This document shows, piece after piece, positions 3,654 to 26,284 of a stretch of 35,828 nt of DNA. The position numbers were made by a program, and so were the translations under genes. The notes beneath the pieces were generated by a model. It saw only the letters and a program-made list of their open reading frames with translations. It was not told the DNA's origin and ran no database searches. Within the stretch, counting starts at the first letter, position 1; each line of letters starts with the position of its first letter. Source of the DNA: Actinomycetota bacterium (lineage in GTDB: Bacteria; Actinomycetota; Acidimicrobiia; Acidimicrobiales; Acidimicrobilacustridaceae); contig SYBH01000062.1 of the NCBI GenBank assembly GCA_005787345.1, positions 1 through 35,828 on the forward strand, read 5' to 3'.

Positions 3654-5297
3654 TCACTGTGTCACAGGTTCGCCGTCGAGAACACCGCGACCCGTCGGCC
3701 AATCGGTCGGCCAACCTTGAGCCGACCACACCGCTGCTGCTGCTGCGGCAAAGACCGCATCAGAGCCATTGACCGGTTCGCTGTCTTGCTCATGCAATGT
3801 CACCTCAATCTGTGGCATGTCAGCCGAACGAAGGACGCCAAAGGAACGAATCGTCAAATCACTGATCGTTCCGTCGTCGCCGACAGACAGACCCTCGCTT
3901 GTTACCCAACCGAGTGCCATGTGAACCGCACCGATTGCATACGAGCGAAGGACGATCGCGTCGAGCAAACGACCACAGCGAAGATCAACGTGTATGACAC
4001 CATCGAGTCCAATCGCAACTGACGCGACTGCACCTTCTTCGCTTGTCACCGTTACAGCGTGCGTCACGCCATCGATAGCTTGTGCATTCTTCCTTGCCTC
4101 AAGCGCTGCAATGAGAAGTTGAGCTTCAACTGTTCCAGCGCCGCGGATATCGACCGAGGTTGGTGGTCCGACAACATCGACTTCCTCAACAACCAACTGC
4201 GGGGCGACGCGCGCGATTGCGTCTGCAATTCCGGCGGTGCGAACAACTCGAATTACACCTGAACCATCAGAGCGAATACCGGCGGCAATTGGCGGACGCT
4301 TTGGTCCAGTACGCACAACGTCCTCGCGAGACAACACCACACGAACCGCTTGTCGATATTCATAGGCAAGTTCGCGGGCAACGCTACCAACCTCGGTCGT
4401 CAACTTGCCGCCAAATGCTCCGCCGTTCGCGAGCGAGGTAAACGGCTCGCCCCCGGGTTCGCACCACGACGCGTCGGTCTCGAGATAGGCCGGCTCGACC
4501 CAACCAGTTCGGAGCGTCAGTTCCCACTCGCCCTCAGGAAGCTCAAGCGGCGGCTCCGGCGACGTTGTTCCGTGCCGACCCTGCACCTTGCCCGCCAACG
4601 CGCGGGCTTCAGGCAACGATCCAGCGACAACCCATCCACCTTCACCATTGGGAATGGCAACGAGCGCATCGGGAGGCGCAGTGTCTTCGGAAAACCCTCC
4701 GCGACCAAGCACAACCTCTGTAGATACCTGCTGTGTTGATCGACCCTCGATAGTCGCCCGACGGGACGCATCTTCGAAATTCCGGTTTTCACTTCGCGAA
4801 TGTTCCACGACAGACGAACCGCTCACGACCATTGACCATGCTTCACGGATCGTTTGCCAGCCGGTACATCGACACAGATGCGCAGCCAAGGCGCGATCAA
4901 CTGCATCAAGATCGTCGGCCGCGGTGTTCTTCGAACGCAGGCCCTCAAGTCGACACACAATGCCCGGGGTGCAGAAACCGCATTGACTTCCACCAGTTGC
5001 TAACAGCGCATCGGACCAGCGCTCCCGATCTTCTTCGGCCAATCCGTCGACCGTAGTAATCACGCGGCCAGCGATGCGGCGAACTGGAGTGACACAAGCA
5101 ACTCGCGGTGCACCGTCGACCAACACGGTGCAGCAACCGCACTGACCCTGTGGATTGCATCCAGCTTTTGGCGCCCGATTTCCGAGCCGACCGCGCAACG
5201 CCGCCAACAACGACACGCCGTTGTCGGGAACGCTCACCTGTTCGCCGTCAACGACGAACGTGATCTGCGCTATTTCGGCTGGAGAGGAATCGGTCAT
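3654..5297 (-). CDS. Fused [2Fe-2S] / truncated molybdenum-hydroxylase-like protein
   Basis: A 547-residue protein. Residues 1-155 are the two-cluster iron-sulfur subunit of the xanthine dehydrogenase family: a plant-ferredoxin domain with C47, C53, C56 and C68, and a four-helix domain with C106, C109, C142 and C144. Residues about 195-540 resemble parts of the large molybdopterin subunit: NGGAFGGK at 291-298 matches the cofactor-contact loop, VRVVLSREDVVRTGPKRPP (318-336) is typical, and TIRSFGVLRSADMPQIEV (482-499) is a C-terminal landmark. About half of the large subunit is missing, and the final GxGE-type motif with the catalytic glutamate is replaced by PVNGSDAVF (509-516). No FAD subunit is encoded nearby. 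Related fused proteins occur in actinomycetes; this one looks catalytically dead or altered. Function unknown. Confidence 0.8.
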   Translation of the reverse strand: MTDSSPAEIAQITFVVDGEQVSVPDNGVSLLAALRGRLGNRAPKAGCNPQGQCGCCTVLVDGAPRVACVTPVRRIAGRVITTVDGLAEEDRERWSDALLATGGSQCGFCTPGIVCRLEGLRSKNTAADDLDAVDRALAAHLCRCTGWQTIREAWSMVVSGSSVVEHSRSENRNFEDASRRATIEGRSTQQVSTEVVLGRGGFSEDTAPPDALVAIPNGEGGWVVAGSLPEARALAGKVQGRHGTTSPEPPLELPEGEWELTLRTGWVEPAYLETDASWCEPGGEPFTSLANGGAFGGKLTTEVGSVARELAYEYRQAVRVVLSREDVVRTGPKRPPIAAGIRSDGSGVIRVVRTAGIADAIARVAPQLVVEEVDVVGPPTSVDIRGAGTVEAQLLIAALEARKNAQAIDGVTHAVTVTSEEGAVASVAIGLDGVIHVDLRCGRLLDAIVLRSYAIGAVHMALGWVTSEGLSVGDDGTISDLTIRSFGVLRSADMPQIEVTLHEQDSEPVNGSDAVFAAAAAAVWSAQGWPTDWPTGRGVLDGEPVTQ

Positions 5298-5338: not shown

Positions 5339-5364
5339 CGACGACCGCCCGAAGGCGGCCGTCG
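5339..5364 (-). terminator. Hairpin downstream of erpA
   Basis: An 11-pair stem with one mismatch (5339-5349 with 5354-5364) and a CGAA loop, just after the erpA stop codon on the minus strand and before the start at 5297. The following minus-strand bases are pyrimidine-rich but lack a clean T run, so it may be a weak terminator or a mRNA stabiliser. Confidence 0.5.
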
Positions 5365-5384
5365 ATCCGAAAGTGAAAGAAAGA

Positions 5385-5705
5385 TCAGCTGAACGAGTTA
5401 CCGCAACCACAGGTCTTCTGCGCGTTGGGGTTGTCGATCGCGAAGCCCGCACCCTGAAGGCCATCTTTGTAATCAAGGGTGGCGCCGGTGAGGAGCTGAG
5501 CGCTTGAAGGGTCGACCACGACCGGAACACCGAACTCGGTGTTCACGACGTCTTCTGAATCCTTTTCGGAATCAAAGAACATTTCGTAGGAGAAGCCACT
5601 GCAGCCGCCGGGGCGCACTGCGACGCGGAGCATGAGATCTCCCTGGCCCTCTTGGGCGATGAGTTCGGCAACCTTTGAAGATGCGGTTTCGGTGAGCGTG
5701 ATCAC
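5385..5705 (-). CDS. erpA: Iron-sulfur cluster carrier, HesB/IscA/ErpA family
   Basis: A 106-residue A-type carrier that delivers Fe-S clusters to target enzymes. The three conserved cysteines are visible: C35 in GGCSGFSYEMFFD and C99/C101 in the C-terminal TCGCGNSFS. Length is normal. The start is GTG at 5705, chosen because GGAGGA lies just upstream at proper spacing; longer frames lack homology. It is divergent from mrp, another Fe-S assembly factor, across about 107 bases, and is upstream of an Fe-S flavoprotein-type gene. ErpA versus IscA cannot be separated by sequence alone; the symbol follows usual actinobacterial naming. Confidence 0.92.
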   Translation of the reverse strand: MITLTETASSKVAELIAQEGQGDLMLRVAVRPGGCSGFSYEMFFDSEKDSEDVVNTEFGVPVVVDPSSAQLLTGATLDYKDGLQGAGFAIDNPNAQKTCGCGNSFS

Positions 5706-5800
5706 TGTTGTCCTCCGTGATTCAGCGGTGTAACGCAAAAGGCTAGCGGAATCATCGCCAAGAACACACGTCTGGGCGGGGTTTGCCCCGTCCTCGCCGG

Positions 5801-5806
5801 TAGATT
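5801..5806 (+). promoter_or_regulatory. -10 box for leaderless mrp transcript
   Basis: TAGATT ends exactly 6 bases before the ATG at 5813, and no Shine-Dalgarno sequence is visible. This spacing puts the transcription start at the A of the ATG. Confidence 0.55.
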
Positions 5807-5812
5807 TCCCGT

Positions 5813-6985
5813 ATGGAAGCCCTTCCCACCAGCGATGAGATCCTCGCTGCACTCCGAGGTGTCGTCGATCCCGAGCTCGGGGCCGACATCGTGGAACTGG
5901 GTATGGCCCGATCAGCAACCGTTTCCGAAGCCGGCGCTGCGATCGTCGTGGTGGCCCTGACCACCGCTGGCTGCCCGCTCAAGGCCCAACTAAAGCGAGA
6001 AATCCTCACCCGTATCGAGAGTCTGCCCGGTATCACCTCGGCCTCAATCGATTGGGTCGAGATGGATGCCGAGCAGAAGGCCGCGGCCATGGATGTCGCT
6101 CGCAAGCACGCCCAATCCGCCGCCGGTCCCAACCGAGTTCCACCGGGTGCTCGAGTGCTTGCCGTTGCTTCAGGCAAGGGCGGGGTCGGAAAGTCGTCAG
6201 TTACCGCCAACCTCGCGGCAGCCCTGGCCAATCGCGGTTTCGCCGTCGGTGTCATCGATGCCGACATTTGGGGTTTCTCGATTCCGCGCATGCTTGGCAT
6301 CGAAGGCCGACTTGAAGCAACAACCGGCCCGAACGAAGAACGCACGATTATCCCGAAGTCAATCCCCATTGGCACTGGCCGACTCGATGTCGTGTCGATG
6401 GGATTGCTCGTCGACGACGAAACCGATGCACTCATGTGGCGCGGGCTCATTTTGAATCGCGCCGTGCAGCATTTCCTCGAAGACGTCTCGTGGGCGAAGG
6501 ATCTCGATTACATCGTCATTGACCTTCCACCTGGCACCGGCGATGTCCAAATGGGCCTTGCGCGCATGCTTCCGCAAGCCGAAATGATTGTGGTCACGAC
6601 CCCCGCAGTTGGCGCGCAACGCGTCGCAACTCGTGCCGTCACGATGGCGCGTAAGAGTCATCTTCATGTTCTCGGTGTGATCGAAAACATGAGCGCGTTC
6701 ACTTGCGATCACGGCCACACACATGCGGTGTTTGGTGAGGGTGGCGGCGCTGCACTCGCCGAAAGTGAAGGGCTTCCGCTTCTTGGTTGCATTCCGCTCG
6801 AACCAGCTGTTTCACAAGGTGGCGATACCGGCGCACCGATTGTGCTCACCGAAGGTGAAGCATCCACCGCACTTCGAGCGATAACCGAACTCCTTGTGAC
6901 CGAACTTGCACCACCAATTTCAATGAGTGGTTGTTCGGCCCGAATGCTCGATGCCGCTCTTGCTGCGCTCGACGCAACTGACTAA
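5813..6985 (+). CDS. mrp: Mrp/ApbC/NBP35-type Fe-S cluster carrier ATPase
   Basis: A 390-residue cytoplasmic P-loop ATPase that loads or transfers Fe-S clusters. Residues 1-95 form a MIP18/DUF59 domain (VVDPELG at 17-23, TTAGCPLK at 50-57). The deviant Walker A motif GKGGVGKSS is at 121-129, DADIWGFSIPR follows, then DLPPGTGDVQ and the IENMS block. In the C-terminal part the usual CxxC pair is not complete: after the first cysteine the sequence runs DHGHTH, so cluster binding by two cysteines per monomer is not obvious. The start ATG has a TAGATT -10 box 6 bases upstream and no ribosome binding site. It converges on the thioesterase gene with a 16-base gap and no visible terminator. Confidence 0.95.
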   Translation: MEALPTSDEILAALRGVVDPELGADIVELGMARSATVSEAGAAIVVVALTTAGCPLKAQLKREILTRIESLPGITSASIDWVEMDAEQKAAAMDVARKHAQSAAGPNRVPPGARVLAVASGKGGVGKSSVTANLAAALANRGFAVGVIDADIWGFSIPRMLGIEGRLEATTGPNEERTIIPKSIPIGTGRLDVVSMGLLVDDETDALMWRGLILNRAVQHFLEDVSWAKDLDYIVIDLPPGTGDVQMGLARMLPQAEMIVVTTPAVGAQRVATRAVTMARKSHLHVLGVIENMSAFTCDHGHTHAVFGEGGGAALAESEGLPLLGCIPLEPAVSQGGDTGAPIVLTEGEASTALRAITELLVTELAPPISMSGCSARMLDAALAALDATD

Positions 6986-7001
6986 TTCCCAGCGCGAGAA
7001 C

Positions 7002-7847
7002 TCAGTGACGAGATGTCAACTGCGCAGTGACATACACCGATTCTCCATCGGTTGACCACAACGCAACATCGAGAACGCCATCGGCAACTCGATATGCAAT
7101 CGTCAATGGCATCGCGGCGATAACAACTCCGTGATCAATCGCATCACGAAATTCCACTTCCGCACGTAGCGAACCCGCGGGATCGAGATCAATCAGTTCG
7201 CGCGCACGCACGCGCTCAAGGGTTTGCTCAACAACTTCCCATGCCACTGCGTTGTTCACATGATTCAGCACATCGAGATCGGTGACACGCGGCCACCACG
7301 GCATCGTGTGGACGTCGTCATCGCCCGGAATAACTGGTTCGTGTACTTGGCGCGCGGTGACCTCCCGACCGCCCGAAGGTTCGGTGTAGGTCGCAACGAA
7401 CTCTGCGGGCAATGTCTTTGGCCGACCGGTAACGGGGTCGAGATGCACCCACAACGTCACGGCTTCTACCGAGCCGCCAACTGCGCCAGCCATCGACACC
7501 CGCCGTTCGGCCCAGCGATTGCCCATCCCCGAACAGAACGTGGCCAGCGCAAGATCCTCACTGTTACGCGGGGCCTGATGCTGTTCGATCAATGTGCGGC
7601 GCACCACCCAAGCCCGAGCCTCGAGACTCCCAAGATCATCGGAATCATCGGTGGCGACGTCCTGCAGATAGCGGGCTACCGCATCGAGACGGAGGCGCCC
7701 GGTGGCATCGACATCACCCAATCGAACACGACGCTCGCGCCGGAAAACTCGACCCAAACTCGGAATGGGCAGCACCCGGCTCGCGCCGTTTTCGCGCTCG
7801 GTTCGCCGGGTCGAACCCTTCTTCCCCGTCGATTCCACATCTCCCAT
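7002..7847 (-). CDS. Acyl-ACP thioesterase (FatA/FatB-like, double hotdog)
   Basis: A 281-residue protein with two hotdog folds. The first covers about 35-150 (RRERRVRLGDVDATGRLRLDAVARYLQD, RTLIEQ). The second (about 170-281) has RVTDLDVLNHVNNAVAWEVVE, which matches the family catalytic D-x-N-x-H block. These enzymes release fatty acids from acyl carrier protein. The start is uncertain: ATG 7847 is chosen because a TAGCGT -10 box lies 8 bases upstream and because the longer in-frame N-terminus (to 8135) is arginine/glycine-rich and unlike the family. It is monocistronic and converges with mrp. Confidence 0.85.
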   Translation of the reverse strand: MGDVESTGKKGSTRRTERENGASRVLPIPSLGRVFRRERRVRLGDVDATGRLRLDAVARYLQDVATDDSDDLGSLEARAWVVRRTLIEQHQAPRNSEDLALATFCSGMGNRWAERRVSMAGAVGGSVEAVTLWVHLDPVTGRPKTLPAEFVATYTEPSGGREVTARQVHEPVIPGDDDVHTMPWWPRVTDLDVLNHVNNAVAWEVVEQTLERVRARELIDLDPAGSLRAEVEFRDAIDHGVVIAAMPLTIAYRVADGVLDVALWSTDGESVYVTAQLTSRH

Positions 7848-7921
7848 GACCAGCGACGCTAGCCCCCGATCCCTTGGCAGGAACGGGAACACGCCGATTT
7901 CCATTAATTCAGTTGACGCGG

Positions 7922-8062
7922 CTATCGCCGGCATGGTTCGGTGGTGTCCATGTTCACGTCTGCCACCACTTCGCGTACTTCGGCCATTCCGGCCTCCGTC
8001 GCGCCTGTGGCGTCGCGCGCCAACGTGACCATTTCCGCCACTTGGTATGCCACCGGGACCAA
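7922..8062 (-). CDS. Possible small protein upstream of the thioesterase gene
   Basis: A minus-strand frame of up to 46 codons, different from the thioesterase frame, with amino-acid composition like a real helical protein (alanine-, valine-, glutamate- and methionine-rich: AYQVAEMVTLARDATGATEA near its start). Possible starts are TTG 8062, GTG 8053 or ATG 8032; none has a good ribosome binding site. It ends with TAG at 7922, 75 bases before the thioesterase start. It overlaps the start of the plus-strand upstream ORF of the whiB leader, and both need not be real. Unrecognised. Confidence 0.28.
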   Translation of the reverse strand: MVPVAYQVAEMVTLARDATGATEAGMAEVREVVADVNMDTTEPCRR

Positions 8063-8109
8063 CGCTTTTACGACTTTCGGTCATAAGCACCCGTCCCGGC
8101 GATCTCTGA
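8047..8109 (+). CDS. Candidate leader peptide (upstream ORF) of whiB
   Basis: A 20-codon frame from ATG 8047 to TGA 8107-8109, rich in proline, leucine and arginine, placed just before two tandem hairpins. Its codons at 8095-8101 (CCCGGCG) are exactly complementary to the left arm of the terminator stem (8146-8152, CGCCGGG). A ribosome finishing this ORF would cover 8095-8109 and allow the terminator; a ribosome stalled earlier would leave it free to disrupt the terminator. No clear ribosome binding site precedes the ATG. Inferred by analogy with whiB7 leaders. Confidence 0.4.
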   Translation: MPPGPTLLRLSVISTRPGDL

Positions 8110-8113
8110 GCTG

Positions 8114-8131
8114 ACGCAGTAACGACTGCGT
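8114..8131 (+). other. Hairpin in the whiB leader
   Basis: A perfect 7-base-pair stem (8114-8120 with 8125-8131) with an AACG loop. It sits between the candidate leader ORF and the terminator, within the region that would be enclosed by the antiterminator pairing 8095-8101 with 8146-8152. Confidence 0.5.
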
Positions 8132-8142
8132 ACATGCACTGA

Positions 8143-8170
8143 GGCCGCCGGGTTCCCCCGGCGGCCTTTC
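8143..8170 (+). terminator. Intrinsic terminator/attenuator upstream of whiB
   Basis: A 10-base-pair G+C stem (8143-8152 with 8157-8166), TTCC loop and a T-rich tail (TTTCTT) on the plus strand only. There is no plus-strand gene upstream for more than 1 kb to which it could belong: mrp ends at 6985 and the region between is minus-strand. It therefore probably ends a short transcript that starts in the whiB leader, that is, an attenuator or a small RNA. Confidence 0.75.
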
Positions 8171-8186
8171 TTCATGTGCGGCCACG

Positions 8187-8262
8187 CCCCCTGTCCATCA
8201 ACCTCCATCCCTCTACCTCTGTCCAACAACCCTCCACCACCAACATCAACCCCATCTGCACT
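8187..8262 (+). promoter_or_regulatory. C-rich, G-poor leader segment (rut-like)
   Basis: About 75 bases between the terminator and the whiB start contain many C and only about three G. Such C-over-G bubbles are typical of Rho utilisation sites and of unstructured leaders. It could add Rho-dependent control to whiB. An in-frame start at 8174 would read through it as a proline/serine/threonine-rich extension, but the ribosome binding site at about 8277-8285 favours the start at 8291. Confidence 0.35.
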
Positions 8263-8290
8263 CCGGTGCACCCACGAAAGGAAAGAACCG

Positions 8291-8635
8291 ATGCTCGCCG
8301 AGACGCTCGACGACATCTCACCGGCCGTCAGGGCCGACGCCGCATGCAACGACCTCAACGCAACGTTGACCGGCGTCTATTTCTCTGAAGAGCTCCAGGA
8401 CATCGCCATGGCCAAGTCGATCTGTTCGACCTGTCCGGTGATCGTCGAATGTCTCGAAGGGGCCATTGAGCGCCACGAGCCATGGGGCGTGTGGGGTGGA
8501 CAAATGTTCATCAACGGAAAGATCCTCGCCACCAAGCGTCGCCGCGGCCGCCCGCCGAAGCTCGCTCGAGCCGAGGATGAGCTGCCCGACATTCCCGTGC
8601 CGGTGCACCTTCAGTCCTGGTTGCGCTCCGCCTAG
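8291..8635 (+). CDS. WhiB-family transcriptional regulator with AT-hook-like tail
   Basis: A 114-residue WhiB-like protein. The four cysteines for the [4Fe-4S] cluster are C19, C45, C48 and C54 (AAC, CSTC, C spacing as in the family), followed by the beta-turn GVWGG (66-70). The C-terminal part has KRRRGRPPK (82-90), an AT-hook-like motif comparable to that of WhiB7. WhiB proteins bind the primary sigma factor and redirect transcription. The ATG at 8291 follows AAGGAAAG at good spacing. The unusually long and structured leader (8047-8290) suggests attenuation control. Which WhiB class it belongs to cannot be fixed without a phylogeny; AT-hook-bearing WhiB proteins may be common in this class. 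Confidence 0.93.
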   Translation: MLAETLDDISPAVRADAACNDLNATLTGVYFSEELQDIAMAKSICSTCPVIVECLEGAIERHEPWGVWGGQMFINGKILATKRRRGRPPKLARAEDELPDIPVPVHLQSWLRSA

Positions 8636-8655
8636 CAACCACCTGCCTGCAGCCG

Positions 8656-8687
8656 GGTGGGATCGCCGCCATCAAGCCGATCCCACC
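8656..8687. repeat. Inverted repeat after whiB
   Basis: Perfect 10-base inverted repeat (8656-8665 with 8678-8687) with a 12-base loop, 20 bases after the whiB stop codon. No T run follows, so it may be an mRNA 3' stem or a weak terminator. Confidence 0.5.
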
Positions 8688-8739
8688 TGCCGCCTCGGAC
8701 AGTCGGACCTATCACCGAACCGGCTTCGCCGAGAGGTGA

Positions 8740-8769
8740 TTGGGAGTGGTGCGGGGGTCCAAGTACGGT
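8740..8769 (+). promoter_or_regulatory. Candidate promoter of tlpA-ccdA
   Basis: TTGGGA (8740-8745) and TACGGT (8764-8769) are 18 bases apart, giving a predicted start about 23 bases before the ATG at 8799. Confidence 0.42.
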
Positions 8770-8798
8770 CGGAACTGCCTCTCGCAGTCGGATCTCAT

Positions 8799-9413
8799 AT
8801 GGAACCCGCACCGCTTCCTCCCCAACCCCGATCGGCCATGCGCCGTTATCTCCCGCTCACTGTGGCGGGACTGATTGCCGTGGGTTTCGCAATTGCCCTC
8901 ATCATCTCGATCTCGGGCGGTTCATCGACGACATCATCCGATGTCACCAAGCTCGACCCCAATGCCACGCAACCGCCTGAGCTCGTCATCACGAACGACG
9001 TGGCCGGCACCAGGTTGCCGAACATCTCCTACGTCGCCTTCGATGGTTCGACCAAAGATCTCGCACCAAATGACAAACCACTACTCATCAACGTATGGTC
9101 CTCAACCTGCGTACCCTGCATAACGGAAATGCCAGCGCTCGAAAAGGTGTGGCAAGCCAACCGCAACGACATCGATGTTCTTGGTCTTGATTATCTGGAA
9201 CCTCCCGAACTCGGACAAGCGATGGCCGATCGCACAGGTGTTACTTATCCGCTTGGACGCGACGTCAACGGGTCGATTCTGCGCTCACTCGGTGGAATCG
9301 GACTTCCCTACACCGTCCTTGTGGCATCAAACGGAACCATTCTGGCCACACACTCCGGTGCGCTCACCGAAGCACAGTTCGCCGCACTCGTGAAGACCGC
9401 AACCGGTAACTGA
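8799..9413 (+). CDS. TlpA-like membrane-anchored thioredoxin
   Basis: A 204-residue thiol-disulfide oxidoreductase. An N-terminal anchor (about 16-38, YLPLTVAGLIAVGFAIALII) places the thioredoxin domain (about 65-204) outside the membrane. The active site is CVPC in WSSTCVPCITEMPAL, as in TlpA/ResA proteins that keep apocytochrome c cysteines reduced. The cis-proline region GIGLPYTVLVASNG is also visible. Start ATG 8799 is uncertain; ATG 8838, just before the anchor, is an alternative. The gene ends one base before ccdA, which supplies electrons to such thioredoxins, so the pair likely serves cytochrome c maturation, including the c domain of CtaC. Confidence 0.9.
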   Translation: MEPAPLPPQPRSAMRRYLPLTVAGLIAVGFAIALIISISGGSSTTSSDVTKLDPNATQPPELVITNDVAGTRLPNISYVAFDGSTKDLAPNDKPLLINVWSSTCVPCITEMPALEKVWQANRNDIDVLGLDYLEPPELGQAMADRTGVTYPLGRDVNGSILRSLGGIGLPYTVLVASNGTILATHSGALTEAQFAALVKTATGN

Positions 9414-9414
9414 T

Positions 9415-10275
9415 ATGAACTCAGCGATCGTTTACGCGTTTGGTGTTGGCATGGTCGCAACATTTAATCCGTGTGGCTTCGCGATGCTCCCGGCGTACTT
9501 GTCCTACTTCTTGGGACTCGAGAACGCGAGAGAAACCGAGAGCCGAGCCGACGCAACGGTGATGCGTGCACTCGCTGTTGGTGCCGCAATGACTGCAGGC
9601 TTTGTTGTCGTATTTGGAGTCCTTGGACTCGTCCTTGACCCGATTCTTTCTTCCATTATCGACAAATTGCCGTGGCTCACCATCGTGTTAGGCGTCGTGC
9701 TCGTGATTCTCGGCATTCGCTTGCTCATGGGTCGAGAAATCACCGTGAGTTTGCCAAAAGTTTCAAAAGGCCCCGAAGGGCGAGAGCTCGGATCGGTTTT
9801 CGTCTTCGGCATTTCCTATGCACTCGTATCTCTAAGCTGCACGTTGTCGTTGTTTATTGCTGCGATATCAACCGTGATCGATCAGCAGAACTTCTTTATT
9901 GGTCTTGGCGCATTCATCGCCTATGCACTTGGCATGGGGCTCGTGTTGATCGTTCTCACACTTGCCATCGCACTTGCTCGCCAAGGAGTCGTGAAGAAGA
10001 TGCGCGGCGTACTGCCCTACATCAACCGCATTTCAGGCGTGCTGCTCGTTCTCGCTGGTGTCTACGTGGCCTATTACGGCTGGTACGAACTGCGCGTGTT
10101 GAATGGCAACATCTCAGGCGGCGGCATTGCCGGTTGGATGTTCAATCTCAATGGCCGCATCACCCAATGGATCAACGAAGTTGGCCCCACCCGCATCGGT
10201 CTCATCCTCGGCCTTGTGATAGCGCTCGTTGTGTTCATCGCATTGCTCAGTAAGGCCCGGACCGCCGACAAGTAG
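9415..10275 (+). CDS. ccdA: CcdA-type cytochrome c biogenesis / thiol electron-transfer membrane protein
   Basis: A 286-residue integral membrane protein with at least six hydrophobic segments. It carries the family motif NPCGFAMLPAY near the N-terminus and a second conserved cysteine in SLSCTLSLF, the pair that relays electrons from cytoplasmic thioredoxin to an extracytoplasmic thioredoxin. The start overlaps the tlpA stop region (TGATATG), showing translational coupling. The C-terminal segment beyond residue 220 (GIAGWMFNLNGRITQWINEVG and a last helix) is longer than in minimal CcdA. The stop codon TAG is itself part of a -10 box for the next gene. Confidence 0.93.
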   Translation: MNSAIVYAFGVGMVATFNPCGFAMLPAYLSYFLGLENARETESRADATVMRALAVGAAMTAGFVVVFGVLGLVLDPILSSIIDKLPWLTIVLGVVLVILGIRLLMGREITVSLPKVSKGPEGRELGSVFVFGISYALVSLSCTLSLFIAAISTVIDQQNFFIGLGAFIAYALGMGLVLIVLTLAIALARQGVVKKMRGVLPYINRISGVLLVLAGVYVAYYGWYELRVLNGNISGGGIAGWMFNLNGRITQWINEVGPTRIGLILGLVIALVVFIALLSKARTADK

Positions 10276-15732: not shown

Positions 15733-16632
15733 TTACGTCGGTGACGTCTTGCGGGGAGTGCCAGCCGGTAATGAATCAAGGCCGCCACGTTCGCCTTCTT
15801 CCCATTCAAGGATTTCACGTTCGGTGAGATAAAGGCCCTCTTGATCGGCATTGTGGTGCCGCGCTGCCCAACGGAAGAACAGCACACCGATAATTCCCCA
15901 AAGGTATGCGGCTTCGATCACTTTCATAATGAGGCCAGCAGCTTCTTGATCGCTCTTCGCCGAGATCCCCCACAATCGAATGGGCTGGTCGTACGCGTCG
16001 TACACCACCGTGTGCGAGAGCCACATCCAGGCCGCAGGAAGTGTCGGAAGAAGTGATTGGGCAAACAGATAGACCATCTGGCCGGGTATTGATAGCCGCA
16101 ACTGCGGCCATGGCCCGCATACCGGTAGCCACATGATGAGAGCGGTAACCACGAAGAGAACATGTGCGGTGAAATGGAATGGCCCACTCGTTGTCGAGGC
16201 ATTCACGAACTGCGGCATATGGCTAAGCATGTTGAACGAGTTGAACAACGCGAACGCCAAAATCGGTGTTGCGAGCACTTGGACCACTCGCCATAACCGC
16301 CCACCTGAAGTCACAAAGAGTTCGGCCAGCCATGTTGGACACGAGAGGAGAAAGAGCGGCGGTACAACCATTGTCAGCACAAGGTGCTGAAACATGTGTC
16401 CTGAATACAGCCGTTGTTCGGCGATGTCATGAAGCGGCCACACCGACACTGCCGTCATAAAAGCGACTGCCAACCAAAATGAAACAGCCTGTCGTGTCGA
16501 GACAACCTGAGTTCCTGGCTCGACAACTTTCGGACCAATCACTTTGGCAACGAAGAGGCCGCCCACAACTACAGCAAGCACCAACCCCCAAACTTCCCAA
16601 TGGGGAGCGAATGAGGGCATCGCCGAGAACAT
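15733..16632 (-). CDS. ctaG: Cytochrome c oxidase assembly factor CtaG (caa3 type)
   Basis: A 299-residue polytopic protein of the CtaG family known from Bacillus caa3 oxidase, needed for copper-site assembly. Landmarks are SGHMFQHLVLTMVVPPLFLL, FNSFNMLSHMPQFVN, HFTAHVLFVVTALIMWLPV and an SLLPTLPAAWMW helix, with conserved histidines in the helices. The hydrophilic C-terminus (about 265-299) is acidic then serine/threonine-rich. Start ATG 16632 or the ATG four codons downstream are equally likely. It is the last gene of the oxidase cluster, 66 bases after ctaF. Confidence 0.92.
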   Translation of the reverse strand: MFSAMPSFAPHWEVWGLVLAVVVGGLFVAKVIGPKVVEPGTQVVSTRQAVSFWLAVAFMTAVSVWPLHDIAEQRLYSGHMFQHLVLTMVVPPLFLLSCPTWLAELFVTSGGRLWRVVQVLATPILAFALFNSFNMLSHMPQFVNASTTSGPFHFTAHVLFVVTALIMWLPVCGPWPQLRLSIPGQMVYLFAQSLLPTLPAAWMWLSHTVVYDAYDQPIRLWGISAKSDQEAAGLIMKVIEAAYLWGIIGVLFFRWAARHHNADQEGLYLTEREILEWEEGERGGLDSLPAGTPRKTSPT

Positions 16633-16698: not shown

Positions 16699-17040
16699 CT
16701 AGAACCAAAACCGAAAGGCCGCCAACATCGCGATGTACACAAACATCGCCAGTAACAAGCCCGAATAAAAGATACGGGTGAGGATCGGCTTATCGAACTT
16801 CAGATGCATGAAGATGTAGAGGATCGTGAAGAGTTTCACGGCCATCAGGATCATGAGCACCGGGATAAGGAGTTCTTCGGCCCAAAGCGGAAAATCCGGC
16901 GCGGTATAGGTGAAGACTTCAATAACGGTAAGAACCGCGAGGAAGATTGCGGTCAGAACATAGACCTTGTCGCGCGAATAGTCCTTGACTGCACCATCGA
17001 GCACGGTGGTGGGGACGTCGTCATGTGAGGTAATGGTCAT
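16699..17040 (-). CDS. ctaF: Cytochrome c oxidase subunit IV (prokaryotic COX4 type)
   Basis: A 113-residue protein with three hydrophobic helices (about 27-47, 52-76 and 86-112). The pattern ILYIFMHLKFDKP between helices 2 and 3 is the COX4_pro signature. It is a small structural subunit of caa3-type oxidase. ATG 17040 follows GAGGAG at proper spacing; an upstream in-frame extension overlaps ctaE. It follows ctaE by 14 bases. Confidence 0.92.
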   Translation of the reverse strand: MTITSHDDVPTTVLDGAVKDYSRDKVYVLTAIFLAVLTVIEVFTYTAPDFPLWAEELLIPVLMILMAVKLFTILYIFMHLKFDKPILTRIFYSGLLLAMFVYIAMLAAFRFWF

Positions 17041-17054
17041 GTGATACTCCTCGA

Positions 17055-17690
17055 TCAGGTTGGGATGAGGTACACGACGGCGAAGATGACGACCCAAACG
17101 ACATCAACGAAGTGCCAGTACAGACCGACGATTTCGACGCTCTCAGCCTTATGTTCCGGAATCTTGCCCCGCAGCGACAGAAGCACGACCGAGACGAGCA
17201 TGATGATGCCGACCGTGACGTGGATGCCATGGAATCCAGTGAGTGTGAAGAACGCTGAACTGAATCGGCTAGTGGTGAACCCGAGTCCTTCGCGAGCGAA
17301 CACCGTGAATTCATAGATCTGACCAGCCATGAACGTTGCGCCAAGAACAGCGGTTGCACCGAGCCAGACGCGCATGCGCTGATGCTCTCCACGCTCAATG
17401 GCCGAAACAGCCAACACCATGGTGAGTGACGACATGAGAAGGACGAACGACGAGGTTGATGTAAACGGAATATCGAAAATCTCGTCCGGGGTCGGACCTT
17501 CAAGAGGACGCCTGTAAAGCAAATAGGTGGTAATCAACCCGCCGAACAGCAAGCACTCTGATGCCAGGAACAACCACATACCCAACTTCGTGTTGGAAAT
17601 GCCGGTGTTGGTGTCGGCATCGATATGCGCGTGTGCCTGATGCGCATCGGCGTCAGCCAATGTCGGACGCGAGGTGAGAGTTTCAGCCAA
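17055..17690 (-). CDS. ctaE: Cytochrome c oxidase subunit III
   Basis: A 211-residue subunit III with five main helices. It has KLGMWLFLASECLLFGGLITTY (helix with the conserved glutamate), SAFFTLTGFHGIHVTVG and the C-terminal YWHFVDVVWVVIFAVVYL. The start is TTG 17690: GGAGG at 17704-17700 is spaced 9 bases from it, while the alternative TTG at 17699 directly abuts the GGAGG. This start lies inside the end of ctaD (8-base overlap), so the two are translationally coupled. The N-terminal 30 residues are histidine/aspartate-rich. Confidence 0.94.
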   Translation of the reverse strand: MAETLTSRPTLADADAHQAHAHIDADTNTGISNTKLGMWLFLASECLLFGGLITTYLLYRRPLEGPTPDEIFDIPFTSTSSFVLLMSSLTMVLAVSAIERGEHQRMRVWLGATAVLGATFMAGQIYEFTVFAREGLGFTTSRFSSAFFTLTGFHGIHVTVGIIMLVSVVLLSLRGKIPEHKAESVEIVGLYWHFVDVVWVVIFAVVYLIPT

Positions 17691-19698
17691 CGGTCTCAAC
17701 CTCCTTCACTACGTCGGCGGAGACGGGAACCGTGGCGTCGCCACCATCGGAGGCATGAGCCTCGGAGCCATGATCGTCATGAGCGGCATCGGGATCGTCC
17801 GGCGGTTCCATAACCCAGCCGTAAATAGCTGCGAGAACAACGATGCCGCCGATGAGGGCGAGCCAAAGGCTGAAGATGAGTCCGTAGGCAACGATCGGAA
17901 GGCCGAAGGCCAATACGATCGGCCAGTAGGACGGTGATGGAAGGTGAATGCCCTTGCCGTCGGTGCGCTGCTGTGCAACCTCTGCTGTCGAGGCAATGCG
18001 CACCAGCTTGCCGTCCTTGGTCTCGCCATACTTGCGATACCAGAAATCGTCGACGCGTGTGACTGTCGGGATTGGATCGAAGTTGTAGGCCGGCGTCGGA
18101 GACGGGGTCATCCATTCGATGGTGCGGCTATCCCACGGGTCGGGTCCGACCGGCGGAAGATTCTTCGCCTTTGACTTGCTGTAGAAAATGTTGAAGATGA
18201 ACATGGCGATACTGATGGCGAGTGTGAACGCACCAATAGTGGCGACCTTGTTCCAGAATTCGAACCCATAGCCCGCGTCGTAGGTATAGATACGACGACT
18301 CATTCCCTGAAGTCCGAGCACGTGCATCGGGGCAAAGGTGAGGTTGAAGCCAAGAAGCATCAGCCAGAAGTTGGCTTTACCGATGCTCTCATTGAGCATG
18401 TAGCCAAATGCCTTCGGCCAATAGAAGTAGAACCCGGCCATGAATCCGAAGAACGCTCCACCGAAGAGTACGTAGTGGAAGTGAGCGACGATGAAGTACG
18501 TATCGGTCTGCTGTGTATCCATCGGGGCAACTGAGTGCATCACGCCGGAGAGGCCACCAATGGTGAACATCGTGACAAGACCGATCGAGAACAGCATGGG
18601 CGCAGAAAAGTTCAACTTGCCGCCCCACATCGTGGCGGTCCAATTCAAGATCTTCACGCCAGTGGGCACCGCAATGAACATGGTGGTGAGCGAGAACGCG
18701 GTAACCGAGATCGGTCCGATACCGGACACGAACATGTGGTGGGCCCATACGCCCCAGCCCATGAAGCCAATGGCGATACCGGAGAACACGATGAATGGGT
18801 AACCGAAAATCGGCTTACGAGCGAAAGTCGGAAGGATCTCGGAGACCAAGCCAAAGGCGGGAAGGATCATGAGGTACACCTCGGGGTGTCCGAAGATCCA
18901 GAACAAGTGCTCCCACAGCAGTGGGTTGGCACCCTTGGCAACGTTGAAGAAGTTTGCGTCGAACAAACGGTCAAGCATGAGCAGAACCTGCGCCGACGTA
19001 AGAACGGGGATTGCGAAGAGCAACAAGAACTGCGAGACGAGTGCCATCCACGTAAAAATGGGCATTCGCATAAGTGTCATGCCAGGAGCTCGCATGTTGA
19101 GCACCGTGACGATGAGGTTCACTGCACCGGTAAGCGACGCGATACCGGTGATGATCAGACCAAGGTTCCAGAAATCAATACCATTGGTGGGCGAAAAGAT
19201 GACGCCGCTGTTTGGTGCGTACATGAACCAACCGCCGTCGGCGCCACCGCCAAGGAACCAGCTTGAGTTGAGGAAAACGCCGCCGGCCAAGAATGCCCAG
19301 AAACTGAACGCATTGATCCGGGGGAACGCAACGTCGCGGGCTCCGATCTGCAACGGGATCAGATAGTTCGCAAACGCAGCACCAATAGGCATAACGACGA
19401 GGAAAACCATCGTCGTTCCGTGCATTGTGTACACCTGGTTGTAGAGGTTGGCACTGAGCAGTGTTCCTCTAGGCGACCACAACTGCATACGAATCAGCAG
19501 CGCTTCAACGCCACCAATGATGAAGAAGAAAATTGCCGCAGCGCCGTACATGATGCCGATCTTTTTGTGATCGACAGTGGTGAACCATGAGCGCGGCCCC
19601 GTCTCGGCCGTCGGACGCCTGAACACACCAGTTGGCGTGTAACCGTCGTCGGAATCACCCGAAGGAAGGGCGAGGGGGCGGTCTTCAGTTAGTGCCAT
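17683..19698 (-). CDS. ctaD: Cytochrome c oxidase subunit I with C-terminal extension
   Basis: A 671-residue catalytic subunit that reduces oxygen and pumps protons. Ligands are all present: H93 and H408 (heme a), H406 (heme a3), H271, H320 and H321 (CuB), and the cross-linked tyrosine Y275 in HPEVY. The K-channel lysine is K349 in PTGVKILNW. The core ends near residue 540 (DPWDSRTIEWMTPSPTPAYNF). A further 130 residues follow: a linker, PSPSYWPIVLAFGLPIVAYGL (587-607), a second helix to about 630 and an acidic tail. This part resembles the C-terminal half of actinobacterial subunit IV, so it looks like a gene fusion. ATG 19698 follows GGAG at 8 bases. Confidence 0.97.
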   Translation of the reverse strand: MALTEDRPLALPSGDSDDGYTPTGVFRRPTAETGPRSWFTTVDHKKIGIMYGAAAIFFFIIGGVEALLIRMQLWSPRGTLLSANLYNQVYTMHGTTMVFLVVMPIGAAFANYLIPLQIGARDVAFPRINAFSFWAFLAGGVFLNSSWFLGGGADGGWFMYAPNSGVIFSPTNGIDFWNLGLIITGIASLTGAVNLIVTVLNMRAPGMTLMRMPIFTWMALVSQFLLLFAIPVLTSAQVLLMLDRLFDANFFNVAKGANPLLWEHLFWIFGHPEVYLMILPAFGLVSEILPTFARKPIFGYPFIVFSGIAIGFMGWGVWAHHMFVSGIGPISVTAFSLTTMFIAVPTGVKILNWTATMWGGKLNFSAPMLFSIGLVTMFTIGGLSGVMHSVAPMDTQQTDTYFIVAHFHYVLFGGAFFGFMAGFYFYWPKAFGYMLNESIGKANFWLMLLGFNLTFAPMHVLGLQGMSRRIYTYDAGYGFEFWNKVATIGAFTLAISIAMFIFNIFYSKSKAKNLPPVGPDPWDSRTIEWMTPSPTPAYNFDPIPTVTRVDDFWYRKYGETKDGKLVRIASTAEVAQQRTDGKGIHLPSPSYWPIVLAFGLPIVAYGLIFSLWLALIGGIVVLAAIYGWVMEPPDDPDAAHDDHGSEAHASDGGDATVPVSADVVKEVETVG

Positions 19699-19740
19699 GA
19701 CCAACTCCAAAGAATGCGGTGCGGACGTTCATCACAAAGC

Positions 19741-21146: not shown

Positions 21147-22007
21147 TCATGCCGGGGTGCCGCCCTGAATAACAACCGGTGCCCCGGGGTCCAAGCCAAT
21201 GGCGCCTTCGGACGAATGGGTCTCGGATCCGTGGTGTTTGATCTCGCGCTCTCCAACAACCGCACCGGCAATACCGGCCGCGATGATGGCAATGGCGCCA
21301 ACTACCACGACCGCAGTGGTGACCCACTTGGCCGACGAAGGCTTCAGCGCAAGCAGCACTGCCACAAGGAAGAAAAGCAGCGATGCCAGGCCAAAGACCC
21401 ACACTGCGCCGATCTTCGAAACGGCAAGGAGAACTCGGGAAATACCGAGAACAACCACGGCAATGATGACAATCGAGAGGACCGGAACTCGGAACGGATC
21501 AATGAAACGGTGGTAGAGCTCGGCGTTGGCGTGATCGTCGCCCGTGGCCCGTTCGGCCCATGTGCGCACTGTCCAGGTAAAGGCAACAACCACCATCACC
21601 GCAACCGCAGCGTAGGTAAGTCCGGTGCTTTCAGTGGCCAGGCCAATGAGCATGAGAACGAACGAAAGTGCGCCCAGAGAGGGGAGATAGTTGACGCCAG
21701 AGGGAGCCCGGGTGAGCGGCACTGACTCCATGTGCACGATCTGTGCTTCTGCATCGGGATCGGCATCGCGGAAGGCGATAAGGAGACCGGCAAGCGAGGC
21801 CGCAGCGAGGAACAAACCTACGAAGAACGTGTAGGCGAAATGATTACCAACACCGCCCTTCCATCCAAGGCTGAGCGGGCCGAGAACACGGTCCATCAGT
21901 GACTGATCTTGGCTGGTGAATCCGATGGCGAACGCGGCGATCAACGAGAAGATCGCCAGACCGGCGAAGAACCGAAACGCTGTTGTGAACATCCGCGAGG
22001 AAAGCAT
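21147..22007 (-). CDS. Seven-helix membrane protein of the oxidase cluster, unknown
   Basis: A 286-residue protein with hydrophobic segments at about 10-31, 57-78, 109-128, 131-150, 174-192, 199-220 and 229-251, and a hydrophilic, histidine-containing C-terminal tail (KHHGSETHSSEG, 257-268). I do not recognise the family; no heme or copper motif is obvious apart from the tail histidines. The ATG at 22007 is 6 bases after the stop of the subunit III-like gene, so it is cotranscribed with the two paralogue genes upstream. It may be a structural or assembly partner of the subunit I-like protein. It is separated from ctaC by 185 bases. Confidence 0.75.
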   Translation of the reverse strand: MLSSRMFTTAFRFFAGLAIFSLIAAFAIGFTSQDQSLMDRVLGPLSLGWKGGVGNHFAYTFFVGLFLAAASLAGLLIAFRDADPDAEAQIVHMESVPLTRAPSGVNYLPSLGALSFVLMLIGLATESTGLTYAAVAVMVVVAFTWTVRTWAERATGDDHANAELYHRFIDPFRVPVLSIVIIAVVVLGISRVLLAVSKIGAVWVFGLASLLFFLVAVLLALKPSSAKWVTTAVVVVGAIAIIAAGIAGAVVGEREIKHHGSETHSSEGAIGLDPGAPVVIQGGTPA

Positions 22008-22606: not shown

Positions 22607-24169
22607 TCAGGCCTCCTCGTCGAGCAACGGCTCGGGCGAACGAACAACGGCAAGGTCACCGAAGTTTCCGGTTGGGGGTGGGGATGGGCACGCCCATTCG
22701 AGGGTCTGACCGGTGCCCCACGCGTCATCGCCAGCCTCAGGCGCACCCTTTCGGGCGCCGCTCGCAAGCCCAAGGATCACGAGAATGCAGCCGATGGCAA
22801 AGAGCGCCGAACCAATCACAGAGATCACGACAAGCGTGTCCTGAGCGCCCGAGAGTCCACTAAATCGTGAGGCGAAACCAACCACACAGAGCGAGACGCC
22901 ACCGAGAATTCCGCCGCCGAGCATGACGAGAACGTTGAGCTTGCCAATGCCGTCGGCCAAATGGCCACCAGTCATCTTCGGGCCCCAATAGCCAATGCCT
23001 GCAGCCCCGGCGGCCAGGGCAGCGCCGAGCACAAGGATCGCTTGACCGTTGGCAAAGAAGTTCGTGGTGCGCAGTTCAAGAGGTGTGATGACAAGTAGTG
23101 CGCCAGCGAACACGCCAAGGAACGTGAGCACGATTGACACGACAGCGAGGCCAAGCGGGCTCTTCAGCGAAGGCTTGCCGTCCTTGAACGCAGCGGCGAT
23201 GCCCCCGAGTAAGAGCAAAAGCGGAAGCAGAATGAGCAGGCCCATGGCTTGCCAGACGAGATCCTCGGAGAACGAGGGGTAGATGGCTGCCTGGGCCCAA
23301 GCGCCAACGCTGAGCACACCAAAGGCGCCGATTGCGGTGAGGAGGAGATTTCGCTTCCCAAGTCGAGCACCAGTGAGGGTGGCAACGACGTCAGCGACGA
23401 TGCCCAGACCGGGGATGAGGAAGGCGTAGATCTGCGGTTGATGAGTGATCCACGACACCTGACCGAACTGGGATTCGGAAGCACCGAAAACCGTGCCGCC
23501 GCCGTAGCGATGGTCGACCCAGATAAGGACAAGATTGGCGAACAGCACCGGAAGCGTGAGCATCCAGATAGCGCCACCGACAAGCATCGAGAAGGTGAAC
23601 ATCGGAACACGGTCGAGCGTCATGCCTGGAGTGCGCAGCGTGATCGCCGTTGTGAGCACACACACTGTGCCGAGAAGCAGCGCAACGATGAGACCACCGA
23701 GTGCCAAAAGCGTGAGGCTCACCGACTTCGCACGCACACCACCGAAGCCACCTTCGATGAACGACGCAACAACGAACACGCCGGACGAAAGCAACCATGT
23801 CCACATCGCTGCTGCTGCAGCGCGGGGGAATGCAACGGTGCTCGCACCAACCTGCAACGGAACGATGTAGGTAGCAAGCCCAAGGAAGAGCGGCACAATA
23901 ACCAGCAAAATCAGGCCAATCTTGGAGGTCTGAAGTACCTGCGTGCCTACCGTCTCGCTCAGGAATGAACCTGACCCAATAATGTGCGCTGAGGCAAGAG
24001 CTGTTGCGATCCAACCAGCGATTCCGAAGACCAACGCGGCCAACACGTAAAACGTGCCAACGGCCTTGTGATCACCGGATCCGAAGATCGTGAGCGGACT
24101 GGGTACGACCGATGGAGCGACCGAAGTTACGTCGGTGCCGGTTTCCGGTCGGGTGTCGGTTAGAGCCAT
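22607..24169 (-). CDS. Subunit I-like heme-copper oxidase paralogue lacking all metal ligands
   Basis: A 520-residue protein with about twelve hydrophobic helices. It is clearly homologous to subunit I: GSGDHKAVGTFY (30-41), YIVPLQVGASTVAFPR (101-116), RTPGMTLDRVPMFTF (179-193), SWITHQPQIYAFLIPGLGIV (239-258) and the C-terminal TLEWACPSPPPTGNF (489-503). Compared with CtaD of this cluster, H93 corresponds to S82, H271 to Q244, H320/H321 to Q293/A294 and the HFHY pair to the NGQA region (374-377). Only the tyrosine (Y248) remains, and a histidine at 243 is one position off. It cannot bind heme a, heme a3 or CuB in the known way. ATG 24169 is chosen by homology to CtaD; the ribosome binding site is weak. 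Function unknown. Confidence 0.9.
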   Translation of the reverse strand: MALTDTRPETGTDVTSVAPSVVPSPLTIFGSGDHKAVGTFYVLAALVFGIAGWIATALASAHIIGSGSFLSETVGTQVLQTSKIGLILLVIVPLFLGLATYIVPLQVGASTVAFPRAAAAAMWTWLLSSGVFVVASFIEGGFGGVRAKSVSLTLLALGGLIVALLLGTVCVLTTAITLRTPGMTLDRVPMFTFSMLVGGAIWMLTLPVLFANLVLIWVDHRYGGGTVFGASESQFGQVSWITHQPQIYAFLIPGLGIVADVVATLTGARLGKRNLLLTAIGAFGVLSVGAWAQAAIYPSFSEDLVWQAMGLLILLPLLLLLGGIAAAFKDGKPSLKSPLGLAVVSIVLTFLGVFAGALLVITPLELRTTNFFANGQAILVLGAALAAGAAGIGYWGPKMTGGHLADGIGKLNVLVMLGGGILGGVSLCVVGFASRFSGLSGAQDTLVVISVIGSALFAIGCILVILGLASGARKGAPEAGDDAWGTGQTLEWACPSPPPTGNFGDLAVVRSPEPLLDEEA

Positions 24170-24349: not shown

Positions 24350-25246
24350 TCAGAGGCCGGATCGAACCAGTTGATCGAGCGCCATTCCGGCGAAAAGCAG
24401 CGTCACCCAGGTAATCGAGAACGTAAAGAGTCGCATCGCTCGCGCAGTGGTCGGATCGCGCAGTAATTGCAAAGACAAATAGGTGAAAAATCCGCCCAAA
24501 CCCACGGCAAGTACCCCATAGATCCAGCCCATTTCACCAACAGGAATGAAGGCAATCGTCAGGGCCCAGACAATGAGGGTGTACACGAGGATCCGGACAG
24601 CGGTTTCGTGACGAGAAACCACTGAAGGAAGCATCGGGACATCGGCAGCCGTGTAGTCCTCTTCATAGCGAATCGCCAGAGCCCAGAAATGAGGTGGCGT
24701 CCAGAAGAAGATGATGGCGAAGAGCAAAAGCGGGGCCCAGGCAAGGGAGTCGGTGACTGCCGACCAGCCGATAAGCACCGGGGCCGCACCTGCTGCGCCG
24801 CCGATGACGATGTTGCTCGTCGATCTGCGCTTCAGCCACAGCGTGTAGATGAAGACGTAGAAGAGGCAGGCCGCTACGGCGAGAACAGCGCTGAGAAGGT
24901 TCACAAAGGCCCAAAGCCACACAAAGGCCAAAGCCTCGAGGCCGATAGCAAAAATGAGGCCATTGCGGGGCTGAATCAGCCCGGTCACCAACGGACGATT
25001 GCGGGTTCGGCGCATCAGTGCATCGATGTCCCGGTCGACGTACATGTTGATGGCGTTAGCGCCACCGGCCGCGCCGGTTCCACCCACCACGGTTGCCACC
25101 ATGAGCCACCATGACGGCAGACCACGCTCGGCCACGATCATCGTTGGCACGGTCGTGATGAGCAGAAGCTCAATGATGCGGGGTTTTGTGAGGGCGACGT
25201 ACCCCCGCAGTCGCGCTGCGAGGGGTGGTTGCGCGACCGATTCCAT
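24350..25246 (-). CDS. ctaB: Protoheme IX farnesyltransferase (heme O synthase)
   Basis: A 298-residue UbiA-superfamily membrane enzyme that farnesylates heme B to heme O, the first step to heme A. The first aspartate motif is NMYVDRDID (67-75, NxxxDxxxD), followed by RRTRNRPLVTG; the second lies in RYEEDYTAADVPML. Nine hydrophobic helices are expected and the pattern fits. The start is ATG 25246, with a TAGCAT box 8 bases upstream. An in-frame GTG at 25351 would add 35 residues of low-complexity sequence and would almost touch the divergent ctaA, so it is less likely. CtaA, encoded next door, converts heme O to heme A. Confidence 0.95.
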   Translation of the reverse strand: MESVAQPPLAARLRGYVALTKPRIIELLLITTVPTMIVAERGLPSWWLMVATVVGGTGAAGGANAINMYVDRDIDALMRRTRNRPLVTGLIQPRNGLIFAIGLEALAFVWLWAFVNLLSAVLAVAACLFYVFIYTLWLKRRSTSNIVIGGAAGAAPVLIGWSAVTDSLAWAPLLLFAIIFFWTPPHFWALAIRYEEDYTAADVPMLPSVVSRHETAVRILVYTLIVWALTIAFIPVGEMGWIYGVLAVGLGGFFTYLSLQLLRDPTTARAMRLFTFSITWVTLLFAGMALDQLVRSGL

Positions 25247-25356
25247 CGGGGCCGATGCTAGGGCGGCGGATCCAGACGCGGACAATCGCGGCCCTGCTTC
25301 GTCAGAATCATCGGTGGTGACGACCGGCGATGTGGGGGAGTTTGCGTTCACTCCCG

Positions 25357-25362
25357 TACGAT
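25357..25362 (+). promoter_or_regulatory. -10 box for leaderless ctaA
   Basis: TACGAT ends 7 bases before the GTG start at 25370; no ribosome binding site is visible. It lies in the ctaB-ctaA divergent region. Confidence 0.5.
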
Positions 25363-25369
25363 CGACACC

Positions 25370-26284
25370 GTGCGTTTGCCACGACTCTCCCCTCGGGCCT
25401 ATCGCCGCATCACCCTCGTGGCCCTGTTCGCGCAGGTGTTCATCACCATCAGCGGCGCTGCTGTTCGTCTGACTGGTTCGGGTCTGGGATGCTCCGATTG
25501 GCCAACCTGCGAAGAAGACCAGCTCGTCGCGCCCCTCGAGTACCACGCCATGATTGAGTTCGTAAACCGCACAGTCACCGGTTTCGTCTCCGTGGCCGTC
25601 ATTCTCGCGGTGCTTGGTTCGCTTGTACGCACACCACGTCGTCGCGATCTCACATGGCTTTCACTTGGTCTCGTCGCCGGAGTCATTGGGCAAATCATTC
25701 TTGGCGGGCTCACGGTGCTCTTCGAACTTCACCCGCCTTTCGTGATCGCACACTTCCTTGTCTCAATGGTGTTGATTTGGAATGCATTTGTTCTTCATGA
25801 GCGTTCAAAGTACGCGCAAGCACCTGCCCTACCCGTAGTTCCGCGCAACGTGCGCGTTCTCAGCCGAATCATTGTCATCATTGCTGCATTGACGTTATTC
25901 ACGGGAACAATCGTGACCGGCACCGGCCCTCACGGTGGTGACGAAACGGTCCCCCGACTTTCCTTCGATATCGGAAGTGTTGTCCGATTGCATAGCGTCA
26001 CCGTTTGGGTGTTTCTCGCACTCACCATCGCAGCACTGTTTGCGCTTCATAGATCTGGCGCGCCAGTGAACGTTGATCGGCGTGCCAAATACCTCGTTGC
26101 TGCGATCCTTGTTCAAGGAACAATTGGTTACGTTCAGTACTTCAACGGAGTTCCGCCCGGCCTTGTACTTCTTCATGTTTTGGGCAGTGTCATCGTGTGG
26201 ATTTCTGCTTTGGCGTTTGACCTTTCTCTCGTTGCGCGCCCAGTTGAGTCCGATGCAACCGAATCACTCTCGACGACGTCATGA
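25370..26284 (+). CDS. ctaA: Heme A synthase (COX15/CtaA family)
   Basis: A 304-residue membrane protein with about eight helices in two similar halves. Landmarks are [20 protein letters not shown] (28-47, with the first cysteine pair), [33 protein letters not shown] and [11 protein letters not shown] in the second half, with the heme-ligand histidines in the helices and the last in LLHVLGSVI. It oxidises heme O to heme A for CtaD. Start is GTG with a leaderless-type promoter. The stop overlaps the clpS start by 4 bases. Confidence 0.94.

Follow-up and report, generated by a model that had tools for sequence, protein, structure and literature searches.

As far as we know, the characterised members of the haem-copper superfamily all catalyse the reduction of O2 or NO, by use of ligands which are lost in the protein described here. 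NorB, the NO reductase, keeps both haems and the histidines of FeB. A COX1-like protein of Acetobacter was reportedly treated as a remnant of COX by Matsutani et al. 2014 (BBA 1837:1810). According to the description given in PMC10715153, which cites Matsutani et al. 2014, this 'deranged' protein has lost all metal-binding residues and is clustered with CtaB, and its hosts are described as dependent on a quinol oxidase. Thus, a ligand-free subunit I is not unheard of. In Acetobacteraceae, bc1 subunits that lost their ligands have been retained, and a structural role was proposed for them (PMC10715153).

The window studied here, i.e. the whole stretch of 35,828 nucleotides, is contig SYBH01000062.1 (assembly GCA_005787345.1) of a member of the Acidimicrobiales. 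Bacteria of this order inhabit soil and water.

The oxidase locus and its second subunit I

The window contains the following genes of haem synthesis and of the terminal oxidase:

25370-26284, plus strand: CtaA/COX15, haem A synthase, divergent, upstream
24350-25546, minus strand: CtaB, haem O synthase, directly upstream of I'
22607-24169, minus strand: I', subunit-I paralogue without any metal ligand, 520 aa
22014-22604, minus strand: III', divergent second subunit III, CtaE-like, 196 aa (COX3, 4.6e-16)
21147-22007, minus strand: M286, polytopic membrane protein of 286 aa with approximately seven predicted TM helices
19741-20961, minus strand: CtaC, subunit II of the active oxidase, with a CuA domain and a C-terminal cytochrome c domain
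17683-19710, minus strand: CtaD, active subunit I with all six His and a C-terminal 2-TM extension
17055-17699, minus strand: CtaE, canonical subunit III
16699-17097, minus strand: COX4_pro, small subunit IV
15733-16632, minus strand: CtaG, caa3-type assembly factor

On one strand, the genes follow each other in the order CtaB, I', III', M286, CtaC, CtaD, CtaE, COX4_pro and CtaG. As I' is flanked by a second COX3 gene and by caa3 genes, it belongs to a second I+III pair, which separates ctaB from a caa3 oxidase that is apparently complete. The original prediction had placed I' correctly at 22607-24169, without naming the strand, which is the minus strand, but had presented it as the novelty of a single protein. 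The actual unit is a paired I'-III'-M286 core, nearly always situated directly behind ctaB. The longest CtaB ORF (GTG at 25546) overlaps the divergent CtaA gene at positions 25370-25546 of the window. Its UbiA domain begins only at residue 128, so the real start is probably located some 300 bases downstream, near 25250. Elsewhere in the window (3654-5297, minus strand), a protein of 547 aa combines a 2Fe-2S domain with a subsequent, only partial match to a molybdopterin-binding domain, and resembles a xanthine/aldehyde dehydrogenase that was fused or truncated.

The frame of I' begins with an ATG at 24169, ends with a stop at 22607 and contains no internal stop. The product matched COX1 of Pfam (1.2e-32), and subunit-I families were its sole matches in NCBIfam, with scores below one third of the family cut-offs (178 bits versus 671 for CtaD). 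The identity to CtaD of the same cluster amounts to 28%. A model calculated by AlphaFold2 with 54 family members (pLDDT 89, pTM 0.91) revealed a complete 12-helix oxidase fold, which was superimposed on mycobacterial CtaD from end to end (Foldseek E 2e-22, TM 0.85; Z 39.6 across 493 residues). Thus, I' shares both the 12-TM COX1 fold and sequence homology with the catalytic subunits I of haem-copper oxidases, and it is a genuine paralogue of them, as had been assumed.

The two partners of I' were analyzed as well. III', whose gene always stands immediately after I', lacks the COX3 invariants E129, H159, H195 and W201 (canonical III numbering) and possesses near-invariant residues of its own, W77 (100%) and R152 (99%), a gain that speaks for a new interface and not for decay. 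In M286, a middle segment (residues from about 104 to 150) shares homology with the C-terminal extension of two helices that is fused to CtaD (hhalign 95%), and three members of the family weakly match Cyt_c_ox_IV; the structure model of M286 was poor (pLDDT 69). By virtue of the homology to the CtaD extension, I', III' and M286 would jointly represent an oxidase core plus its extension.

Ligand loss, distribution and selection

Ligand columns were read from a MAFFT alignment of I' with its neighbour CtaD and with other active subunits I. While the CtaD proteins of this set have His in all six columns, I' contains S82, Q244, Q293, A294, Q376 and I378. Hence the bis-His site of the low-spin haem is absent (S82, I378), the proximal His of the high-spin haem is replaced (Q376), and so are the three histidines of CuB (Q244, Q293, A294). 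The haem b/b3 and FeB histidine equivalents of the NO reductase NorB are all lost, too. Neither the D nor the K proton pathway of family A was found in I' (D132 is replaced by T, E286 by Q and K362 by L); in addition, N139 is changed to A, and the haem-propionate arginines R481/R482 to S/G. The position of the cross-link tyrosine (Y248) is the sole survivor among the active-site and channel positions compared.

Cofactors could also be bound by histidines at other positions. No substitute His or other likely haem ligand is conserved in the membrane core of the cofactor-less I' forms. The only conserved His of these homologues, H34 of the N-terminal DHK motif, is common to active subunits and is not a ligand; therefore, displaced histidines are excluded as a family-wide explanation, and we rejected this idea. 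For the window, the residue assignments of the original prediction agree with the alignment, and its claim that all histidines of heme a, heme a3 and CuB are replaced is borne out, but the claim does not extend to basal relatives, which keep haem ligands and a cupredoxin domain.

The gradation of this loss was determined on 68 non-redundant I' proteins with pairwise identities below 72%. None of them possesses the CuB triad (0/68). All three haem histidines, the ligands of both haems, are present in nine proteins and the low-spin bis-His pair alone in eleven, while in 48 of the 68 the low-spin haem-a pair is lost, a few of which retain one of its two His. The loss is thus beyond chance; it is general among relatives for CuB and partial for haem a. 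Many basal members have Arg instead of the first CuB His and Ala-Gly instead of the other two, whereas the large clade without cofactors mostly shows Q at two of the CuB positions and has Q more often than any other residue at the a3 position. A tree calculated after removal of the ligand columns unites all I' proteins, against the active subunits, in one clade (support 100), on whose deepest branches the haem-bearing forms are found, and the haem-a pair underwent at least six changes.

The M286 proteins display a corresponding series. In basal relatives they carry a C-terminal cupredoxin with an intact C-x-H-x-M copper site, in family f7 (L065, L067, L068, L071-L073) a cupredoxin-like domain is kept whose copper motif is lost, and in M286 of the window the cupredoxin is gone. 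Since basal relatives keep haem ligands and the cupredoxin domain, the family was once a CuB-less haem protein; in the ancestral module, the cupredoxin domain may have stood in the place of subunit II. The haem-a pair is kept in 14 of 15 cupredoxin-bearing non-redundant members versus 6 of 52 without this domain, but a linked loss of both is not significant because the tree contains only three cupredoxin changes. One group (L137-L140, L142-L147, L060, L063, L066), in which I' is devoid of CuB, bears the haem ligands and an Arg at the first CuB His and has a cupredoxin-bearing partner, is possibly a distinct redox complex.

Sixty-one relatives were inspected. I' is 81-97% identical in most close members of the genus and 41-62% identical elsewhere in the genus and the family, and a second COX3 adjoins it in nearly all cases. 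With M286 as a marker, the module was detected in 195 of 298 sampled genomes of the Acidimicrobiales (149 of 226 good-quality ones) and in 105 of 171 genera. It is thus present across relatives, and signs of decay were not seen. Outside the order, no M286 of full length was detected; the matches obtained span only the second half of the protein, and those that were read represent a separate membrane-anchored cupredoxin encoded downstream of ctaCDE. Likewise, the best matches outside the order in a phylum-wide search with the haem-bearing form of I' all had six His, and they were therefore rejected as copies of I'. Two public MAG records titled Bifidobacterium breve (L041, L043) contain the Acidimicrobiales cluster with 81% identity and are probably mislabelled.

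The gene order I'-III'-M286-CtaC-CtaD-CtaE occurred in 55 of 55 loci having the whole set on the stretch, and in 67 of the 71 loci long enough to show it, I' is directly preceded by CtaB. Each of 15 genomes tested disclosed one CtaB at the threshold used. A type-2 CtaD with readable upstream DNA but without I' was not found; this statement rests on the smaller, unbiased set of 61 relatives, as most loci had been selected by a module match. Checked genomes lacking I' have only other oxidase types (G039, G044, G051, G056, G057, G058) or contigs ending at CtaC/CtaD (G011, G028, G037), and we rejected them as counterexamples. In family f99 (L169, L171), CtaB-I'-III'-M286 is intact and forms a unit separated from ctaCDE by other genes. 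By eye, the genes between the two units resemble a Fur-type regulator and a TroA/ZnuA-type metal ABC transporter in L171 (5962-9133); L169 has a gap of equal size (5357-10053). Early-branching clusters contain a thioredoxin/TlpA-like gene between M286 and ctaC (L172, 5769-6350, minus strand; L189, 6226-6798, plus strand).

Selection was estimated from dN/dS values (Nei-Gojobori) between members of the genus. They ranged from 0.04 to 0.16 for I', the lowest value stemming from a pair with very few changes, from 0.04 to 0.14 for M286 and from 0.04 to 0.06 for CtaD, and reached up to 0.18 for III'. The module is clearly constrained, and evolves approximately two- to threefold faster than the active subunit. 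I' is under purifying selection, and with its 520 codons unbroken and embedded in an operon it was rejected as a pseudogene, in accordance with the original prediction.

Possible functions of the I'-III'-M286 unit

A non-catalytic role of I', as suspected before, follows from a real paralogue whose ligands are lost and whose frame is intact and selected. As selection preserves the protein in spite of this loss, it is probably a structural or assembly partner and not an enzyme. We propose that I' is an oxidase-derived, redox-silent scaffold serving the neighbouring caa3 oxidase in docking or assembly, a proposal for which confidence and doubt are evenly balanced. I' descends from a duplicated A-type oxidase in which CuB was the first cofactor to be lost; a stage as haem protein devoid of CuB and equipped with a cupredoxin domain followed, and both haems (high-spin and low-spin) and the cupredoxin disappeared later, on several occasions. 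I', III' and M286, the latter with subunit-IV/CtaF-like helices, may build a second oxidase core, which lacks its own subunit II and, in the window lineage, any cofactor, and the folded I'-III' body would be what selection keeps. The most likely present job of this body would be that of a non-redox scaffold bound to the caa3 oxidase of the same operon. Such a scaffold would use the subunit-III face either to pair with or dock the active II-I-III unit or to hold this unit for the bc complex and biogenesis partners. Homology, fold, ligand loss and its order, the operon and the selection are shown by the data above, while a joint complex of the three proteins, its binding to the active oxidase and the purpose of this binding are proposed.

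Conservation along the protein agrees with a scaffold. With CtaD as the reference, conservation of I' peaks in loop II-III, helices III-V, loop IV-V and the C-tail and is lowest in helices VIII-XII, which form the copper/subunit-II half. In actinobacterial supercomplexes, the mouth of the D-pathway (loop II-III) is the site of subunit III and of the QcrB loop, and subunit III mediates docking contacts to complex III in M. smegmatis and F. johnsoniae (PMC8361435). The pattern is that of a kept, remodelled I'-III' body with a copper/subunit-II side free to drift, and therefore leads us to favour a role as structural or docking partner of the neighbouring oxidase, though the conserved blocks could in part reflect requirements of the fold. 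A candidate docking partner exists, since a bc-type cytochrome b is encoded in the source genome and in 22 of 24 relatives. Five genomes (G038, G039, G041, G044, G045) have a much more strongly matching QcrB-type cytochrome b besides or instead of the short type of approximately 280 aa, and two respiratory chains appear to coexist in the Acidimicrobiales. Against the scaffold counts that I' is linked to ctaB as strictly as to ctaCDE, that the module of family f99 stays with ctaB when parted from ctaCDE, and that type-2 oxidases outside the Acidimicrobiales function without I'.

The linkage to ctaB is the starting point of the main rival, in which I' mimics an apo-subunit I and serves as a platform where CtaB and CtaA dock during synthesis and hand-over of haem O/A, the ancestral haem forms having been transient holders of haem A (and copper). 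CtaB lies next to I' in most loci, is single in the genomes tested and goes with I' in f99, it was not located ahead of ctaC in the sister lineages read, basal modules also comprise the cupredoxin and the neighbouring thioredoxin-like gene, and the ligand-less Acetobacter protein is likewise described beside CtaB (PMC10715153). However, a genome of the same order without I' (L130) has an ordinary CtaB near its type-1 oxidase, so CtaB does not need I'. Moreover, most I' proteins lost the ability to bind haem, and ctaB commonly clusters with oxidase genes anyway. We regard haem delivery as rather unlikely, but worth keeping in sight.

Still less probable is a subunit in which the I' body moves electrons, protons or quinone by other means. 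The basal forms, where the bis-His low-spin pair is combined with a type-1 copper domain, do resemble a wire from copper to haem, but the window lineage is devoid of the haem pair, of the cupredoxin and of D132, N139, E286, K362 and R481/R482, and the membrane core of cofactor-less forms did not acquire a conserved His. That I' is an evolutionary relic heading to loss could be concluded from its faster evolution compared to CtaD, from the repeated, independent losses of haem ligands and from the degenerate COX1-like gene described for Acetobacter (PMC10715153). The selection data (dN/dS about 0.1) disfavour this reading, as do the occurrence in 105 genera, the consistent company of I', III' and M286 and the new conserved residues of III', and we judge it very improbable. 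A mis-set alignment hiding displaced ligands, conceivable at 28% identity, or a chimeric gene can practically be dismissed in view of the same loss in independent genomes with copies 41-97% identical, the end-to-end overlay of the model and the DHK motif as the place of the only conserved His.

Returning to the scaffold, we tentatively suggest a wider history, possible but falling somewhat short of probable. A whole oxidase core (I, III, IV-like) would have been duplicated in one order, have turned into a CuB-less haem/blue-copper complex and, after loss of all cofactors, have ended as a permanent non-redox partner of the caa3 oxidase. It would be the first complex of the haem-copper superfamily with a conserved structural function and with living intermediates for each step.

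Relation to known systems

The view that no family of this kind has been described needs to be narrowed by the Acetobacter protein, as far as PMC10715153 reports on it, and stands for the literature on Acidimicrobiia that was searched. In this literature, which covered few subscription papers, we found no account of an I' family of Acidimicrobiales, a paired III', CuB-less haem intermediates or a cupredoxin partner. A strongly selected, order-wide family that kept the fold and dropped the chemistry shows that a non-catalytic use of the oxidase core can be separated from its catalysis. The living intermediates of this family, which lack CuB, CuB and a3, or all cofactors, make the order of loss readable from present-day proteins, and provide biophysics with natural 'half oxidases' that bear haems without CuB or the low-spin haem alone. 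For annotation in the Acidimicrobiales, a pair of subunits I together with a pair of subunits III should not be counted as two oxidases.

With A-family subunits I (CtaD/COX1, M. smegmatis 6adq/6hwh) I' shares the 12-helix fold over nearly the whole length and the blocks DHK, PLQxGA..AFPR, RxPGM..R.P.F.W and EWxxPSPPPxNF. It differs from them by the lack of the six ligand His, E286, D132, K362 and the propionate arginines, and by its partners, which are its own III' and M286 instead of subunit II. NorB belongs to the same subunit-I superfamily and has a changed active-site metal, too, but retains both haems and the FeB histidines, none of which is left in I'. The ligand-less bc1 subunits of Acetobacteraceae are similar in that a respiratory subunit was kept after loss of its metal ligands. 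They are part of another complex, however, and there the cell's own bc1 lost the ligands, whereas here a paralogue did so beside a working copy. The closest counterpart by description is the COX1-like protein of Acetobacter, in which all metal-binding residues are said to be lost as well and which is adjacent to ctaB. The two are probably independent losses. Unlike the Acetobacter protein, as it is described, I' represents an order-wide family that stands beside a complete active oxidase, has its own subunit III and comprises graded intermediates.
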